From positions 1,342,001 to 1,406,000 of the forward strand of contig NZ_CP022112.1 in NCBI RefSeq assembly GCF_000730165.1: DNA of 64,000 nt. Direction: 5' to 3'. Source of the stretch: Nitrospirillum viridazoti CBAmc. GTDB lineage: Bacteria; Pseudomonadota; Alphaproteobacteria; Azospirillales; Azospirillaceae. Every line of letters starts with the position of its first letter. Within the stretch, counting starts at the first letter, position 1. The notes beneath the pieces were generated by a model. The model was not told the DNA's origin, made no database searches, and worked only from the letters and a program-made list of their open reading frames with translations. The translations under genes and the position numbers were made by a program. Shown piece by piece: positions 2,223-55,608 of the stretch.

Positions 2223-2603
2223 CTACTCCGCCGCCAGCACCTCGCGCACCACCGTCTGCAGCTGCCGGCCGAACACCGGCTTGTACAGGATGGCCGCGGG
2301 ATGGTCCTGGTTCATGCGTTCCAGCATCGCCGGTTCGCGCGAGGCGGTGATGAAGATGACCTTGGAGCCGACGAACTCATGGATGGCGAGAGCCGCGTCC
2401 ACGCCGTCGCCCACGCCCTTCAGCCGCATGTCCATCAGCACCAGGCGGGGCCGTTGGGCCTTGGCCAGGGCGATGGCGTCGGCGGCGGTCGCGGCGGTGC
2501 CGCACACGATCAGCCCCATGTCCTCGATCTGGATGCTGAGGGTTTGGGCGATCAGGAATTCGTCATCCACGACCAGGACGCAGTCTTGCAGCCGATCGCT
2601 CAT
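2223..2603 (-). CDS. Single-domain response regulator (CheY-like)
   Basis: 126 residues made up of one receiver domain and nothing else. The acidic pair is D13-D14, the phospho-acceptor D58 in VLMDM, the switch threonine T86 and the conserved lysine K108 in YKPV. Without an output domain it probably works by protein-protein contact or as a phosphate relay, as stand-alone receivers paired with HWE/HisKA_2 kinases often do. Its ATG overlaps the stop of the upstream kinase by four bases (ATGA), so the two are translationally coupled and almost certainly cognate. Confidence 0.9.
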   Translation of the reverse strand: MSDRLQDCVLVVDDEFLIAQTLSIQIEDMGLIVCGTAATAADAIALAKAQRPRLVLMDMRLKGVGDGVDAALAIHEFVGSKVIFITASREPAMLERMNQDHPAAILYKPVFGRQLQTVVREVLAAE

Positions 2604-4735
2604 GGCGCCGCCATTTCGACGGGGGAACCCGCCACATCCACCACCGGTGTCGGCAGGATGATTTCCGCCCGTGTGCCCTTATCGAACCGCATCTCGATCG
2701 TTCCGTCCAGCTGCGCCACCAAGCCCTTTACGATGGTGCCGCCCAGACCGCGCCGGTAGCCGCCCCCATCTTCCCCCGCCGGTGGAGAGGTCGGGATGCC
2801 GTCGCCGTCATCCGCCACCACCAGCAGCACGCCTCCCTCCTCCCGGCGGCGCATCGCTATTGTGATGGTACCACGCCCTTCCGGGAAGGCATGTTTCAGC
2901 GAGTTGGTGATCAATTCAGTCACCAGCAGGCCCAAGGGGATGGCGAAATCCAAATTGACCGTCAGCGGGCAGATGGCGATGTCCAGCCCCACCCCGTCAT
3001 CCGCCCCCGACAGCAGGATGTTGCGGGCCAGTTCATCCAGGAAGGGCGCGATGTCGAAGCTCTCCAGGTCGGGGGAGGCCATCAGCTGCTGATGCACCAG
3101 GCCCAGGGCATAGACCCGGCTGCGCAGCCCCATCAGCGCCTGGCGTCCATCCGGATCCTTCAGCTGCAGGGCCTGCATCATCACCAGGCCGTCGATGATT
3201 TGCAGGTTGTTCTTCACCCGGTGATAGACCTCGCGCAACAACAGGTCGCGCTGTTTCAAGGCGGCGGTACGCTCGGCCACCACCAGTTCCAGGTCCGCCT
3301 TGGCCTCGCGTAGCGCTGCCTCCGCCTCCGCCCGTTCGGTCACGTCGATCAGCACCCCGGTGGCGCGGGTGGGGGCCCAGGTGACCGGATCGCGCGCCAC
3401 GATGGCGCTGCGATGGGATAGCCAAATCCAGCCCCCGCCCCCCTCCGCCGCGTCCGGGTCGCCGTCGGCCCGGCGCACCCGGTACTGCATCTGCACCAGT
3501 TCCGCGGCACCGGTCTGCAGCAGACTCAGGCCGGCCGCGCGTTCGCCCCGGTCATCCGGATGAACCCAATCCGCCCACGCGGCGTATTCGGGACCATGCA
3601 GGGGGAACCATCTCTCCGCCGGCAAGGTGCCGCCCGTGACCTCCGCCGTGCGCCGATCCACCCAGCCCAGGCCCCGCGCCAAATCCAATTCCCAGATGCC
3701 CAGCTTGGCGCCCTCCGCCGCCAGGCGCAGGCGCGTCTCGCTTTCCTTCAACGCCAGGGCCGTCTTGTGCATGGTGTCGATGTCCTCGACCACCGCCAGC
3801 AGCAAGGGCGGCAGCCGGGCACCGGCCTTGCGCATCCCCGCGCCACGCACCAGCGTCGCGGACACGCGGCCCCAGACGGGTGTGCCATCCTGGCGCCGGA
3901 AGCGCAGCTCGCGGACATAGACGCTGGCCTCGCCCGCCAGCAGGCGCGCCAACTCCAGCCCCTGCGCCGCGCGATCCTCCCCCCACAGCAGGTCGGGCCA
4001 AGCCATCCGGCCAGCCAGGTCGGCCCGATTGTAGCCCAGCATGCTGGCGAAGGCGTTGTTCACCCGCAGCATCAACCCGGTCTCCGGATTGACCTGCACC
4101 TTGCCCACGGCTGCCGCCTCGAAACTGGCGCGGTATTCCGCCTCGCTGCCGGCCAGGGCCTCCAGCGCCGCCGCCCGTTCGGCCAGGGCCTCCGTGAGCT
4201 GGGCGTTCGCCGCGCGCAGTTCGGCCGTGCGCTCGGCCACCCTGCGCTCCAACTCGGAATTGGCGGCCAGCACCTTGGCCTCGCTCTCCCGCAGCAGGGC
4301 GGCGGTGCGCTCCTGCTCCTGGATGGTGCGGGTCAGGTCGGCGTTCAGCCGGCCCAGCTGCGCCGGCGTGGGCAGGGCCAGCACGCGCGGCACCAGGGGC
4401 CACAGCATGGCGGCGGTGGCCACCGACAGCAACGCCGTCACCAGCTTCACCACCCCCTCCATCCCATAGGCCGGCATCCACAGGGTCAGGATGGACAGCA
4501 TGTGGGTTAGGCCGCAGGCCAGGATGAAGGCCACGAACAAATGCCCCACCCAGCGGTAGGCCAAATCGTTACGCTTGCGTACGAACCAAGCCAGCGCCAG
4601 GGGTATGGAGAAATAGGACAGGCCGATGACGGCGTCGGAACCGGCGTGTAGCCAAATAAGACCCGGCAGCCAACTGAGGCAGAAGCCATGCGGCGTCAGG
4701 CCGGATGGATCCAGCAACCAGTCCGTCAAACTCAT
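2600..4735 (-). CDS. HisKA_2-type histidine kinase with ethylene-receptor-like membrane sensor domain
   Basis: 711 residues from the ATG at 4733-4735, which has GGAGG six bases upstream. Residues about 20-130 form three membrane helices that line up with the ethylene-binding domain of plant ETR1: aspartate D34, Y41, I44-P45, F70-I71, C74 and H78 match ETR1 D25, Y32, I35-P36, F61-I62, C65 and H69 with identical spacing, including the Cys/His copper ligands, and YRWV is identical. A coiled linker follows, then two PAS domains (about 200-325 and 335-470), then the HisKA_2 phospho-acceptor H505 in YHRVKNNLQ and an HATPase with ELITNSLKHAF and DDGDGIP. What it senses is inferred: ethylene or another small Cu(I)-bound ligand. 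Coupled to the single-domain regulator downstream. Confidence 0.9.
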   Translation of the reverse strand: MSLTDWLLDPSGLTPHGFCLSWLPGLIWLHAGSDAVIGLSYFSIPLALAWFVRKRNDLAYRWVGHLFVAFILACGLTHMLSILTLWMPAYGMEGVVKLVTALLSVATAAMLWPLVPRVLALPTPAQLGRLNADLTRTIQEQERTAALLRESEAKVLAANSELERRVAERTAELRAANAQLTEALAERAAALEALAGSEAEYRASFEAAAVGKVQVNPETGLMLRVNNAFASMLGYNRADLAGRMAWPDLLWGEDRAAQGLELARLLAGEASVYVRELRFRRQDGTPVWGRVSATLVRGAGMRKAGARLPPLLLAVVEDIDTMHKTALALKESETRLRLAAEGAKLGIWELDLARGLGWVDRRTAEVTGGTLPAERWFPLHGPEYAAWADWVHPDDRGERAAGLSLLQTGAAELVQMQYRVRRADGDPDAAEGGGGWIWLSHRSAIVARDPVTWAPTRATGVLIDVTERAEAEAALREAKADLELVVAERTAALKQRDLLLREVYHRVKNNLQIIDGLVMMQALQLKDPDGRQALMGLRSRVYALGLVHQQLMASPDLESFDIAPFLDELARNILLSGADDGVGLDIAICPLTVNLDFAIPLGLLVTELITNSLKHAFPEGRGTITIAMRRREEGGVLLVVADDGDGIPTSPPAGEDGGGYRRGLGGTIVKGLVAQLDGTIEMRFDKGTRAEIILPTPVVDVAGSPVEMAAP

Positions 4736-4911
4736 AAGCGACCTCCGCCACCGGCACATCGCCAAGTCCAGAGGTTTTACCCCCAAACCTTTGCGAGTAT
4801 GGAACGGTGGCGCCGGGCATCGCGCCCGTCAAGTCGCGCGTTCGATTAGATTGACCAAGTCCTGCACGCACAGGGTGAGGCTTGCGACGCCGGGGCCGGC
4901 GTTGGCTGGTG

Positions 4912-5715
4912 TCAGCGGGCCGCCTCCTCCGCGGCCTCGGTCACCTCGCGTCGAACCAGTTTGTCCAGCAGGGGGAACTGGGGGTCGCCCAGCCAGGCGC
5001 GCACGGCGGCCACGTCGGCCAGGGCGTGCAGGGCGGCCGTCGCCTGCTCCGGCCGGCCGACCTTGACGGAGATGCCGCCCAAGGCATGCACGCTCTCGAA
5101 CGCATGTTCATCCGGCACGTCGTCGCCGATGAAGATGGGACGGCGGCCCTTGAACGGTTCCACGGTCATGAAGCGATAGACGGCATCCCCCTTGAGGGCT
5201 GCGGCCGGCAGCAATTCCACGCCCACATTGCCTTCGACCACCCGGTAGCCGTCGGGCAGGCCGGGTAGCGCCGCCTTGGCCAGCCGGGTGATATGGTCCA
5301 GGGATTGCGGGTGCGGCCCGGTGTGGATGGCCAACACCGGGCCCTTGCGCTCGATGACGATGTTGGGGGCGCGGCCCAGTTCAGCCTCAGCCCGATCCGC
5401 CAGGGCGGCCAGGGCCGGGGGCTCCTCCGCCGCCACCGCCGGCTCGTCCGGAGACAGCCGCAGCTCGATCCCGAACAGCCCGCCGGCGCGCAGCACCATG
5501 GGCTGGAACAGCGTGTCGATGGACGCCAGCGAGCGGCCACTGATCACCGCGACAGCCCCGCCCAGCTGGCGGTCCAGGTTGGACAGCAGGGTGCGCAACT
5601 CGTCATCCACCACCACGCCGGTGGGGTCCTTGTGGTGTTCCAGCAGCGTCCCGTCAATGTCCAGGAACAGGGCCCAGCGGTCCCCGGCGGCGGGCGCCAG
5701 GGCGGGGGACGGCAT
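4912..5715 (-). CDS. otsB: Trehalose-6-phosphate phosphatase
   Basis: 267 residues, normal for OtsB. HAD-superfamily motifs are in order: DIDGTLL with the nucleophile and acid/base aspartates near the N-terminus, VISGRS as motif II, and GDDVPDEHAF near residue 215 carrying the metal-binding acidic residues. It removes phosphate from trehalose 6-phosphate in the cytoplasm to give trehalose, a stress protectant. The ATG at 5713-5715 starts four bases after the stop of the synthase gene and puts the catalytic motif at the usual distance from the N-terminus. The operon partner strongly supports the assignment; a related sugar-phosphate phosphatase is the only real alternative. Confidence 0.92.
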   Translation of the reverse strand: MPSPALAPAAGDRWALFLDIDGTLLEHHKDPTGVVVDDELRTLLSNLDRQLGGAVAVISGRSLASIDTLFQPMVLRAGGLFGIELRLSPDEPAVAAEEPPALAALADRAEAELGRAPNIVIERKGPVLAIHTGPHPQSLDHITRLAKAALPGLPDGYRVVEGNVGVELLPAAALKGDAVYRFMTVEPFKGRRPIFIGDDVPDEHAFESVHALGGISVKVGRPEQATAALHALADVAAVRAWLGDPQFPLLDKLVRREVTEAAEEAAR

Positions 5716-5719
5716 CGCT

Positions 5720-7642
<1,923 letters not shown>

Positions 7643-7676
7643 GGTGATACACCCATACCCTATCGGTTAAGAAAAC

Positions 7677-7713
7677 TATGACCTGGTGTTATGATTGCAA
7701 TAATCAGGTCATA
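7677..7713. repeat. Inverted repeat upstream of the trehalose operon
   Basis: TATGACCTG at 7677-7685 is repeated in perfect inverted form, CAGGTCATA, at 7705-7713 with a 19-base spacer. On the minus strand the second arm is followed by GTTTTCTT, so it could be an intrinsic terminator for the upstream glucosidase operon, a leader attenuator, or an operator for the synthase gene that starts 35 bases further on. Confidence 0.5.
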
Positions 7714-7919
7714 TATCGCGCAGATCGAACAGATATAGCCGTAACGGCGTTTTCTATTGCTCCGCCCCTCAGTATTCATGTAGGAATTCTAGAGACGAGA
7801 TTGTGTTCCAAAAAAGGCAACCGCGGCGGAGGCGGGACCGAAAATCCGCATAGGCAGCGTAAGACCGTGGCGGAGCATCCGCCGGTTCCTTGGTCCCATC
7901 GCCGTAGACCTATCGGCCC

Positions 7920-10088
7920 TTACGAGCGGACGATGAGCGGCACCAGGCCTTCCTCGTGGTCAGAGATGGAGGCGATGACCTGCCCCCCCATGCGCTGGAA
8001 GAAAAGATCGACGGTGTGTTCCCCCACCGTCACGCGGCGCACGGTCAGTTGATCGATACCGATGGGCAGCTTGGGGCGGTTGACGTGGATTTCCCCCCGC
8101 CAGCCGTCGACCTCGATGCCCAGGCAGGCCTGCAATAGCATGAAGACCGAACCGGCGGCCCAGGCCTGAGGCACGCAGGCCACCGGATAGGCGATGGGCG
8201 TCTCCCCCTGTTCACGCGGGAAGCCGCAGAACAGCTCGGGCAGGCGCATACCGAAGCGCACCGCCGCCTCGAAGGTGTCGCTCATCAGCTTCACCACGCC
8301 CCCGCGCACGCCATAGCGCGCCAGACCGGCGGCGCAGATGGCGGTGTCGTGCGGCCACACGGAGCCGTTGTGGTAGGACATGGGGTTGAAGCAGACCTCG
8401 GTGTCCGCCAGCGTGCGGATGCCCCAGCCGGTGTGGAAGGCGCCGGCCAACAGCTGGTCCGCCACGCGGTGCGCCCGCTCCGGCGAGGGCAGGCCCACGA
8501 ACAGCAGATGCCCGACGTTGGAGGCGCGCACGCGGCAGGGCCTGCCCTTGCCGTCCAGCGCCAGGGCGTAGAAGCCCATGTCCTCCATCCAGAAATGGGT
8601 TTCCACCGCCTGGCGCAGGGCCTCGGCCCGATGCTGCCAGTAGGCGGCCTGCGCGTCCTCCCCCCGCCGCTTGGCCAGGCGGGCCAGGCCGCAATAGGCG
8701 GCGTAGACGTAGCCCTGGACCTCGACCAGGGCAATGGGCCCCTCCGGCAGGCTGCCGTCGGCATGCTGGATGCTGTCGAAGCTGTCCTTCCAGCCCTGGT
8801 TCGCCAAGCCGGATTCCTCGGCGCGCTGGTAGTCGACGAAGCCGTCGCCGTTCTGGTCGCCCGCCCCTTCCATCCACGCGGCGGCGGCGCAGAGCGAGGG
8901 CCACAGCTGGTCGATGAAGGCCATGTCCCCGGTGCGGTCGGCGTAGACCGAGGCCAGGTAGATGTAGAGCGGCGTGGTGTCGACGCTGCCGTAATAGCGG
9001 CCGAAGGGCAGCTCACGCAGCACCGCCATCTCCCCCTTGCGCGTCTCATGCAGGATCTTGCCCGGCTGAGCGTCGCTGAAGGGTGCCGTTTCGGTGGCCT
9101 GATGGGTGGCGAGGAAGGCCAGCACCCCCCGCGCCAGGCGGGGGTTCAGCCACATCATCTGCAAGGCGGAGATGATGCCGTCGCGGCCGAAGGCGGTGGA
9201 GAACCAGGGGATGCCGGCATAGGGGTAGGGGCCGGTGGCCAGTTCCGTCGTCAGCAGGGCGGTGTCCGCCTGGGCGCGCGCCAGCCAGTCGTTGAACACC
9301 CGGCCGGAGCTGTAGACGCTGGCGCCGCGGCGGCGCTTGGTGCGCATCTCCAGCCGCGCCCGCACCGCGGCGGCACGGAAGCGCACGCGGCTGGGCGTGT
9401 CCGTGCGCTCGGTTCCGACCTCGATGTACAGGACGTGGTCGCCGCGTTTGGGCAGGTTGATGTTGAACACGGCGCGATCGCCCTGCAGCCGGTCGGGGGC
9501 CTGACTGAAGGACAGGGTGGACTGGCGGGTCACCTGGTCCAGGCCCTCATAGCTCAGCGTCACGCCGTCGCCGGACAGCTGGGCCTCATGCGTGCGGCCG
9601 CGCAGTTGGCGGGTGGAGCCCCGCACCTCGAACATGTCGCGGAAGTCTGCGGCGAAATTGAAGGTCAGCGGCACGACGATGTCGCTGCCGCCGAAATTGG
9701 ACAGGGTCACCCGCTCATACAGCCGGTTCTGCCACAGGATGCGCGTGCGCTCGATATGGATGACACCCCACAGGGTCATGCCGCCGCCGGGGGCGGGCAT
9801 GGGCACATTGGTGCTGTTGGCCGTGAACAGGATGTTGTCCTCGCTGAGCGAGGCGCCCAGCAGCGACGGCTCCTTATCGCCGATGCGCAGCTGATAGCGG
9901 GACAGGATGCGGGTGTCGTCCACGAACAGGCCGTCGCCCTGGCCCAGGATGTCGCCATGGGCGTCGGCCACGACGAAGCAATCGCCATGCTTCAGCGCGA
10001 ACAGCTTGAAGGTCTCGCGCGGGCCGCTGCCGTCGGGGCCGGCCAGGCCGATGGCCGGGTCCAACTGTCGTTCGTCGAGGGCTGCCAT
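7920..10088 (-). CDS. Glycogen-debranching-type amylo-alpha-1,6-glucosidase
   Basis: 722 residues. An N-terminal beta-rich domain (about 25-230, GDILGQGDGLFVDDTRILSR) is followed by an (alpha/alpha)6 barrel (about 280-660) with GIPWFSTAFGRDG, ESGLANQGWKDSFDS and NPMSYHNGSVWPHD, the signature of bacterial GDE-type amylo-1,6-glucosidases related to GH133/GH63. These hydrolyse alpha-1,6 or related linkages of storage or compatible glucans in the cytoplasm; no signal peptide is seen. ATG at 10086-10088 preferred; a GTG at 10101-10103 just three bases after the preceding stop is the alternative. It follows the GT4 gene directly and is upstream of the trehalose operon, so a linked role in glucan or osmolyte metabolism is likely. 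Confidence 0.88.
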   Translation of the reverse strand: MAALDERQLDPAIGLAGPDGSGPRETFKLFALKHGDCFVVADAHGDILGQGDGLFVDDTRILSRYQLRIGDKEPSLLGASLSEDNILFTANSTNVPMPAPGGGMTLWGVIHIERTRILWQNRLYERVTLSNFGGSDIVVPLTFNFAADFRDMFEVRGSTRQLRGRTHEAQLSGDGVTLSYEGLDQVTRQSTLSFSQAPDRLQGDRAVFNINLPKRGDHVLYIEVGTERTDTPSRVRFRAAAVRARLEMRTKRRRGASVYSSGRVFNDWLARAQADTALLTTELATGPYPYAGIPWFSTAFGRDGIISALQMMWLNPRLARGVLAFLATHQATETAPFSDAQPGKILHETRKGEMAVLRELPFGRYYGSVDTTPLYIYLASVYADRTGDMAFIDQLWPSLCAAAAWMEGAGDQNGDGFVDYQRAEESGLANQGWKDSFDSIQHADGSLPEGPIALVEVQGYVYAAYCGLARLAKRRGEDAQAAYWQHRAEALRQAVETHFWMEDMGFYALALDGKGRPCRVRASNVGHLLFVGLPSPERAHRVADQLLAGAFHTGWGIRTLADTEVCFNPMSYHNGSVWPHDTAICAAGLARYGVRGGVVKLMSDTFEAAVRFGMRLPELFCGFPREQGETPIAYPVACVPQAWAAGSVFMLLQACLGIEVDGWRGEIHVNRPKLPIGIDQLTVRRVTVGEHTVDLFFQRMGGQVIASISDHEEGLVPLIVRS

Positions 10089-10106
10089 GGGGTCCGGTCT
10101 CACGGC

Positions 10107-54342: not shown

Positions 54343-55608
54343 GTGGACATGCTGCTGCGACAGCGGGTGCGACTGGCGGGGCTGGCGGCCCTGGGTGGCA
54401 TCGTCGCCCTGCTGTTGATCATGCAATCCATCTTCGCGGAGGTGGTGAGCAGCGAGAGGTGGGTGAACCACAGCCATCAGGTCCGCACCACGGCGACCCT
54501 GGTGCTAAGCCACATCCTGTCGGCGGAATCAGCCCAGCGCCTGTACCTGCTGGTCCACGCGCCAGAGGCGCGCGACCGCTTCCAGGGCTATCGCGACGAC
54601 ACCACCAACCAGTTGCTGGCGCTGACCACCCTGTTGAGCGACAACCCGGACCAGGTGCGGCGTGCATCCACCCTGACGGCCCTGGCCAATGCGCGGCTGG
54701 ATGCGCTGCAGGTGCTGATGCAGGCCCCCACCGGATCGCCCACGGACACCATAACCCTGGAACGGGGCGAATCCCTGATGGCCGAGGTGCGGGAGCAGGT
54801 AGCCATCATCGACGGCACCGAGCAGGCGCTGCTGGTGCAGCGGCAAGGCCGGGTCAACACCCTGCGCCTGCTGTTCGTGGCCGGCAGCGTCGTCATCTGC
54901 CTGGTGGCCGGCGGCCTGGTCTGGCGCCTGTCCAGCGGCGCCATGACGGAGGCGGACCGCGAAAGCCGCATGCGCCAGCAGTTGCAGGACATGCTGGACG
55001 AAAAGGGCCGCCTGCTGCGCGAGATCAACCACCGCGTGGGCAACGGCCTGGCCATGATCGGTACCCTGCTGCAGCTGCAGACCCATGACACCAAGGACCC
55101 GCAGGCCGAACGCGCCCTGGCGGAGGCCCGCACCCGTGTGCTGGCCATCAACGAGGTCCACAAGCGCATGCTGCAGGCCGAAACGGTGGACGAGGTGGAG
55201 TTCGGCGCCCTGCTGCCCGCCTTCTGCCGTGAGGTGGCGGCGGAATACGGGGCGCTGGACCGGGTGCAGGTGACCAGCACGCCCGTGCTGCTGCCGGTGG
55301 AGACGGGTGTCGCGCTGGCGCTGATCCTGAACGAGATGCTGACCCCCACCCTGCGCCGGTCGGACGAGCTGTGCAGCCCCGTGCAGCTGACCCTGGCGGT
55401 GGTGGACAACCGGCTGTCTTGCATCATCGACGACCCCAGCGGTCAGTTGCCCACCGATATGGGAGCCGCCCGCCTGGCCGGCATCGGCATGACCGTGGTC
55501 CAGGCGCTGTGCCGCCAGATTGGCGCGGAGATGGCCTTCGATAAGGCCGGCACGCAGTTCTACATCTCCATCACCGTGCCCCGGGCGCGCAAGGTGCAGG
55601 CGGCCTGA
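54343..55608 (+). CDS. CHASE3-domain HisKA_2-type kinase with degenerate ATP site
   Basis: 421 residues. Two membrane helices (12-32 and 175-197) flank a CHASE3-like helical sensor. The dimerisation/phospho-acceptor part retains H230 in LLREINHRVGNGLA, close to the HisKA_2 motif HRVKNNLQ. The ATPase is damaged: the N-box reads LNEMLTPTLRRS with Pro335 where the Mg-binding Asn is expected, G1 reads DDPSGQLP instead of DDGxGxP, and the GLGL loop is reduced to AGIGM. It may be a pseudokinase, a phosphotransfer protein or a partner of the hybrid kinase that starts 140 bp later on the same strand. Confidence 0.82.
   Translation: MDMLLRQRVRLAGLAALGGIVALLLIMQSIFAEVVSSERWVNHSHQVRTTATLVLSHILSAESAQRLYLLVHAPEARDRFQGYRDDTTNQLLALTTLLSDNPDQVRRASTLTALANARLDALQVLMQAPTGSPTDTITLERGESLMAEVREQVAIIDGTEQALLVQRQGRVNTLRLLFVAGSVVICLVAGGLVWRLSSGAMTEADRESRMRQQLQDMLDEKGRLLREINHRVGNGLAMIGTLLQLQTHDTKDPQAERALAEARTRVLAINEVHKRMLQAETVDEVEFGALLPAFCREVAAEYGALDRVQVTSTPVLLPVETGVALALILNEMLTPTLRRSDELCSPVQLTLAVVDNRLSCIIDDPSGQLPTDMGAARLAGIGMTVVQALCRQIGAEMAFDKAGTQFYISITVPRARKVQAA

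Follow-up and report, generated by a model that had tools for sequence, protein, structure and literature searches.

A probable two-gene ethylene-sensing system of Nitrospirillum viridazoti CBAmc that combines an AzoEtr1-like sensor with a HisKA_2 kinase and a coupled receiver

The DNA analysed here, referred to as the window, comprises 64,000 nucleotides (nt) of contig NZ_CP022112.1 of Nitrospirillum viridazoti CBAmc (assembly GCF_000730165.1, positions 1,342,001 to 1,406,000) and carries on its minus strand a gene for a sensor histidine kinase of 711 amino acids (aa), followed by an overlapping gene for a single-domain receiver. The two genes probably constitute a Nitrospirillum ethylene-sensing two-component system with a proposed copper site, phosphotransfer between the partners and a PhyK/PhyR-like output. 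A profile match, the conservation of residues, purifying selection and the kinship with AzoEtr1, an ethylene binder of Azospirillum brasilense, give good support to the assignment of an ethylene-receptor domain joined to a HisKA_2 kinase and coupled to a receiver. Judged from its sequence, the membrane sensor is very probably a genuine ethylene receptor. The features of the two genes are as follows.

2600..4735, minus strand: sensor histidine kinase of 711 aa, the proposed Nitrospirillum ethylene receptor (AzoEtr1-like sensor, HisKA_2 kinase), from translation, Pfam scan and relatives
4373..4660, minus strand: ethylene-binding domain ETR1_N, residues 26-121 (PF25487, 129-134 bits; the hydropathy profile predicts three transmembrane stretches within residues 34-116)
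4634..4636, minus strand: Asp34, counterpart of AtETR1 D25 and AzoEtr1 D35 (alignment)
4514..4516, minus strand: Cys74, counterpart of AtETR1 C65 and AzoEtr1 C75, proposed Cu(I) ligand (alignment; AzoEtr1 numbering from PMC11819568)
4502..4504, minus strand: His78, counterpart of AtETR1 H69 and AzoEtr1 H79, proposed Cu(I) ligand (alignment; AzoEtr1 numbering from PMC11819568)
3833..4138, minus strand: first PAS domain, residues 200-301 (PAS_3 56.7 bits, PAS 39.7 bits; found again when scanned alone)
3281..3733, minus strand: second PAS-like region, residues 335-485 (PAS_3 22.9 bits alone; partial FixL and PRK09776 matches)
3014..3232, minus strand: HisKA_2 phosphoacceptor domain, residues 502-574, with His505 (PF07568, 69.2 bits)
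2648..2938, minus strand: HATPase_c ATP-binding domain, residues 600-696 (PF02518, 49.8 bits)
2223..2603, minus strand: single-domain receiver of 126 aa with phosphoacceptor Asp58 (PF00072, 59.8 bits; 4-nt overlap with the kinase stop)

According to its translation, the kinase frame extends from an ATG at position 4735 to the stop codon at 2600, with a TTG at 4786 as a possible alternative start in the same frame. The ETR1_N profile, for which the curated Pfam cut-off is 27 bits, gave 133.9 bits (E 1.3e-38) as the sole match of the genome in a whole-genome search and 129 bits in the protein scan, and the same profile search yielded no match in any of 14 control genomes. The match lies far above chance expectation, and the membrane domain is of the ethylene-receptor type, as had been proposed in the first-pass annotation from the sequence alone. 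The residues D34, Y41, I44, P45, F70, I71, C74 and H78 named in that annotation are present at these positions of the 711-aa translation, together with K97 and the words YRWV and AFI-x2-CG-x-TH, and the spacing of the Asp, Cys and His residues equals that of D25, C65 and H69 of AtETR1 as quoted in PMC11819568. The hydropathy profile revealed hydrophobic stretches at residues 34-52, 66-85 and 98-116, plus a fourth at 586-604 that falls within the kinase core and was not counted as membrane-spanning. Cys74 and His78 are placed within a hydrophobic stretch at a spacing of i, i+4, which is compatible with the two residues being close in space. In AtETR1, seven residues are required for ethylene binding, the Cys and His copper ligands among them.

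The best point of reference is AzoEtr1, a protein of 525 aa that binds ethylene directly, whose residues 1-130 bind 14C-ethylene in yeast and whose gene is followed by an overlapping one for a receiver of 135 aa (PMC11819568). The D35A and C75A versions of AzoEtr1 are reported there not to rescue the disruptant, a result for which the authors name confounders. The A. brasilense Sp7 locus (L037) encodes a 525-aa kinase and a 135-aa receiver, as published. The sensors of the window and of Sp7 share 52% identity over 133 residues (46% over a 150-residue alignment), and D34, Y41, I44, P45, I71, C74, H78 and K97 align with D35, Y42, I45, P46, I72, C75, H79 and K98 of AzoEtr1, of which D35, C75, H79 and K98 have their AtETR1 counterparts stated in PMC11819568.

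Functional bacterial ethylene receptors have been reported from Synechocystis and A. brasilense (PMC11819568), and many proteobacteria and cyanobacteria are predicted to possess ethylene-binding domains, linked to widely varying outputs (PMC7700396). The first-pass annotation had judged that a plant-associated bacterium reading ethylene by this route would be of real interest; the kind of receptor stands, but the surprise is reduced, since the case of A. brasilense is already in print (PMC11819568). As AzoEtr1 and its overlapping receiver gene have been published, the new content of the present system consists in its HisKA_2/PhyR-like output and in the lead into the stress response. A literature search, outside which most subscription journals lay, returned no joint mention of an ethylene receptor and Nitrospirillum; the titles joining ethylene receptor, bacteria and HisKA_2 concerned archaeal or eukaryotic kinases and the cytokinin receptor, and none of the listed titles joining ethylene receptor with PhyR-related words dealt with a bacterial stress response. 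Azospirillum amazonense is the older name of N. amazonense. A genome paper of 2015 on A. amazonense names, among the signal proteins, a coding sequence with similarity to 'ethylene response' (PMC4383252).

The key residues of the sensor are highly conserved. In an alignment of 33 sensors (A3), C74, H78, Y41, I44, P45 and F70 were invariant, position 34 was Asp in 31 and position 97 was Lys in 32 of the sequences. A second alignment of 42 sensors (A4), which takes the 15 of 26 class loci that read cleanly and leaves out five plasmid-record rows as well as the divergent L068, showed C74, H78 and K97 as invariant and Asp at position 34 in all but one sequence (41/42). Of the 11 class loci outside A4, three (L090, L091 and L094) have diverged, with loss of the Cys or the motif; since such loss does occur, retention elsewhere is informative. 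Six pairwise comparisons within the genus yielded ratios of nonsynonymous to synonymous substitution rates (dN/dS) of 0.06-0.17 for the sensor, which is thus under purifying selection, and of 0.14-0.24 for the kinase core, 0.06-0.29 for the two PAS regions and 0.10-0.24 for the linker. Moreover, the PAS region is gone in the 429-aa kinase of N. amazonense BR 11622 (L046), whereas sensor, kinase and receiver are kept. In the products of this gene (L046 6244-7530(-)) and of its counterpart in Rhizorhapis suberifaciens (L033 5001-6227(+)), an ethylene domain is combined with a HisKA_2 kinase and no PAS domain was matched.

The protein was scanned with 12 extra upstream residues, and both HisKA_2 and HATPase_c scored above their cut-offs. 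With respect to the two PAS domains claimed earlier, the first is firm and the second is weak, falling below the PAS_3 cut-off of 25.6 bits. The proposal of a HisKA_2 kinase with a coupled single receiver was borne out by the profile scores and by the overlap of the receiver start with the kinase stop, which reads ATGA. The 4-nt overlap is present in all seven genus loci and also in Rhizorhapis; H505 is invariant across 26 aligned kinases, as is D58 in 22 aligned receivers. The receiver also matched 35 distinct sequences of solved structures, one of them listed as PhyR (4qic).

The type of receiver follows the type of kinase. Across the alignment of 22 receivers, identity to the window receiver is 57-98% for the genus and Rhizorhapis and 18-26% for 14 other loci; in 13 of these 14, Pfam or the motif assigns the kinase to the HisKA type, and L065 has an untyped kinase. 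Of the HisKA_2-type loci, the receiver survey covered those other than the class loci L069, L076 and L082. Ten loci without a receiver in the first pass, three of the HisKA_2 type and seven others, were inspected again. In all three HisKA_2-type loci (L039 of Kovacikia minuta, and L050 and L064 of family genomes), a stretch resembling a receiver lies no more than about 110 nt downstream, and the best match of each, among the receivers tried, was the HisKA_2-associated receiver of Rhizorhapis at 32-37% identity; L050 has, besides, an upstream receiver of the other kind. The seven non-HisKA_2 loci yielded a weak downstream match to HisKA-type receivers in L053, an upstream match in L056 and none in the remaining five. 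Because receiver type follows kinase type, kinase and receiver appear to move as one cassette beneath an exchangeable sensor. One genome of the family (G032) encodes two ethylene-domain kinases, one of the HisKA type with an overlapping receiver (L063) and one of the HisKA_2 type with a HisKA_2-associated receiver downstream (L064).

The search of related genomes with the ethylene-binding profile, suggested in the first-pass annotation, detected ETR1_N in 7/7 genomes of the genus, 24/35 of the GTDB family and 26/59 of the relatives' genomes searched (own genome counted), and in 28 of 385 genomes sampled from the class (own genome included). The nearest named relatives, by best segments, are N. 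amazonense BR 11880 (95%) and BR 12005 (94%), followed by N. iridis and Azospirillum sp. B4 (83%). The sensor of the window clusters with the genus and Rhizorhapis (support 100/99) in a tree built from sensor sequences. The tree took 35 of 57 rows; 20 were dropped as their kinase type was not recognised by the motif script, including the Pfam-HisKA rows L038, L040, L041 and L053, L088 and L089 were left out as divergent or misframed, and the kinase type of rows without a Pfam scan rests on the motif. A single clade of all 14 HisKA_2 rows was rejected by the approximately unbiased (AU) test (p 0.0085), which suggests that the pairing of ethylene domain and HisKA_2 arose more than once; one origin for the 10 HisKA_2 rows of the family and Rhizorhapis was not rejected (AU p 0.125). 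The number of joins is unsure, since some end branches are long and the starred branches, taken by themselves, can be explained by a single change. The ethylene domain would accordingly represent a sensor that can be exchanged and that has been combined repeatedly with differing kinase-receiver cassettes.

According to the mechanism proposed here, three N-terminal helices would span the membrane, the second of them carrying Cys74 and His78 at a distance of one turn, and these two residues would hold the Cu(I) that binds ethylene. The ligand state may be relayed via one or two PAS domains to the HisKA_2/HATPase_c core, which would autophosphorylate on His505 and then phosphorylate Asp58 of the single-domain receiver, the product of the co-translated gene. 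Ethylene probably lowers the kinase activity, by analogy with what has been proposed for AzoEtr1 and SynEtr1. Since the receiver has no output domain, it would act through protein contact or as a phosphate relay, and because kinase and receiver resemble the PhyK/PhyR kind, a likely target would be the general stress response or a different relay of the HisKA_2 type.

This resemblance derives from the NCBIfam models. PhyK is also the best match for the kinase cores of L033, L046, L050 and L064, and the receiver half of PhyR is the best match for the receivers of L033 and L046; for AzoEtr1 and its receiver, other NCBIfam families rank first. The system differs from PhyK/PhyR by its own sensor, by a receiver without the sigma-like domain and by scores far below the family cut-offs. 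In the Nitrospirillum version, an AzoEtr1-like sensor is thus coupled to a PhyK/PhyR-like pair of HisKA_2 kinase and receiver, and since HisKA_2 kinases have a known target class, the EcfG general stress response, the downstream step is concretely testable in a plant-associated genus.

Several results weigh against the reading of the two genes as an ethylene-sensing system with a PhyK/PhyR-like output. The sensor found no match among solved structures at E 1. The class relatives L090, L091 and L094 carry an ETR1_N-like domain without the Cys, so that the domain by itself is no proof of ethylene sensing. The sensor is constrained but not uniquely so, low dN/dS being common to the linker, PAS and kinase regions. 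At the output side, the PhyK match of the kinase core (NF051872, residues 444-685) reached 125 bits against a cut-off of 750, and the match of the receiver to the receiver half of PhyR (NF006623) 86 bits against 240, which makes both resemblances domain-level only. Finally, Rhizorhapis contains the same kinase-receiver pair yet an intact PhyR, and the pair is therefore independent of the shortened PhyR of Nitrospirillum described below.

The own genome contains no full-length match to the PhyR model. Its best match is the sigma-like part (C4:320651-321085; L105 3553-4116(-)) in an open reading frame of 187 aa, which ends just inside the first strand of the receiver and adjoins NepR (above cut-off) and a divergent sigma-factor-like gene, read as a putative EcfG gene. 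The PhyR receiver is missing in all seven Nitrospirillum genomes (the others being L114-L119), the match ending at model position 148-179 of 258. The 28 other family genomes comprise 18 with a whole-model PhyR match, one with a receiver match only and nine with none at E 1e-27, in which 66 of 69-111 candidates were scored; the sigma-like part alone was found in none of the 28 (thresholds 1e-20 for three and 1e-27 for 25 genomes). Other lone PhyR-like receivers of the own genome scored slightly above that of the window (89 and 88 versus 85 bits). Ethylene perception in Nitrospirillum might thus be wired into a split general stress response, in which the genus-wide free sigma-like PhyR beside NepR and the EcfG-like sigma factor would be switched in trans by the lone PhyR-type receiver of the ethylene kinase, perhaps together with other lone PhyR-like receivers. 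We regard this specific scheme as unlikely, and an action in trans of lone receivers such as that of the window as possible, not probable. If the split stress response were true, a plant hormone would set the stress sigma factor of the bacterium.

The strongest alternative leaves the receptor in place and concerns its output. The receiver may target a partner outside the stress response, for instance the flagellar motor, a phosphotransferase or a c-di-GMP (cyclic diguanylate) enzyme, a view that comes close to an even chance and is not exclusive with the two-component system proposed here. The target of AzoEtr1 and its downstream pathway are reported as unknown in PMC11819568, and ethylene lowers c-di-GMP in A. 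brasilense. By inspection, the window receiver is not of the FATGUY type, as it reads KVIFITASREP at the position of the motif, which is PFXFATG(G/Y) in MrrA and SdrG (PMC5964349). On the other hand, HWE/HisKA2 kinases have been widely and repeatedly linked to the alphaproteobacterial general stress response (PMC5964349, PMC12148442), and PhyK/PhyR is the best match of both partners.

It is rather improbable that fold and copper site of an ethylene receptor are kept for another main signal, such as copper, redox state, light via PAS cofactors or another small alkene. PAS domains can carry cofactors of their own, and ETR1_N is present in class genomes of unspecified lifestyle. SynEtr1 is described as a receptor for both light and ethylene (PMC11819568). 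Against such a switch of signal, no compared residue has been lost, and direct ethylene binding is reported for AzoEtr1, whose sensor is 52% identical (PMC11819568). A degenerate sensor that binds no ligand and merely tethers a PAS-controlled kinase to the membrane is highly improbable: key positions are lost in L090, L091 and L094 and the dN/dS of the sensor is not below that of all other parts, but the Nitrospirillum sensors keep every compared key residue at a dN/dS of 0.06-0.17 and the sensor persists in the PAS-less kinase of BR 11622.

With respect to the genetic context of the proposed ethylene-sensing genes, the neighbours of the kinase gene were matched in five of the six other genus loci (tblastn, E 1e-8, stretches of 11-14 kb). 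The same search found a shared neighbourhood beyond the genus in none of 18 family loci of other genera, two class loci, two A. brasilense loci and one Rhizorhapis locus; in G005 (L047), the kinase-receiver pair is the sole part in common with the window. Upstream of the kinase, the stretch at window 4912-10103(-) contains a trehalose-phosphate-synthase-like gene of GT20 (OtsA 431 bits, cut-off 565) and two further genes that are read as a putative trehalose phosphatase and a putative glycogen debranching enzyme, a group kept in five of six other genus loci. A maltodextrin or glycogen phosphorylase gene is likewise located upstream of Azoetr1 (PMC11819568). A loose GG-N10-GC search for a sigma-54 promoter, as proposed for Azoetr1, gave one match in the 265 nt upstream, not consensus-like by eye. 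Both in the own genome (C3) and in A. brasilense Sp 7 (ABSP7_p1, L037), the contig or plasmid that carries the receptor gene has the size of a secondary replicon, 1.6-1.75 Mb. In Novosphingobium sp. ES2-1, a plasmid typed as conjugative carries an ethylene-domain kinase and receiver (L040) near a Cas9 gene, with one small hypothetical gene between. The window contains a second HisKA_2 kinase at 55021-55239(+) (G000:C3:1397021-1397239; 66 bits) and, with it, a long frame with a match of receiver type around 58460 (G000:C3:1400460). No match to the model of 1-aminocyclopropane-1-carboxylate (ACC) deaminase (TIGR01274) was found in the own genome at E 0.001; a homologue has been reported in A. 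amazonense (PMC4383252), a discrepancy due to a difference of strain or model.

A comparison with known systems places the Nitrospirillum genes next to AzoEtr1/AzoRRetr1, with which they share the same ethylene-binding domain with all compared residues, the order of a kinase gene and an overlapping gene for a single receiver, and a related plant-associated host genus. The two systems differ in the length of the overlap (4 nt in the window, 8 nt in Sp7) and in the domains behind the sensor, AzoEtr1 having one PAS_4 and HisKA whereas the window kinase has one firm PAS domain (PAS_3/PAS), one weak PAS region and HisKA_2; the kinase cores are 29% and the receivers 20-25% identical. The closest relative found outside the genus is the kinase of Rhizorhapis suberifaciens (L033), with 73% identity in the sensor, 64% in the HisKA_2 core and 57-58% in the receiver and the same 4-nt overlap, although it comprises 409 aa, shows no PAS match and belongs to a genome with an intact PhyR. 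The arrangement had been described earlier as foreign to cyanobacteria, a claim contradicted by the kinase on plasmid pA of Kovacikia minuta (L039), which combines an ethylene domain, PAS, HisKA_2 and HATPase_c with a receiver-like stretch directly downstream; it differs by three PAS stretches, its sensor is 46% identical to that of the window, and its database record is unannotated. SynEtr1 of Synechocystis and plant ETR1 have the ethylene-binding domain family in common with the window kinase; the output of SynEtr1 goes to the response regulator slr1213, and signalling by the plant receptors is mostly independent of kinase activity (PMC11819568).

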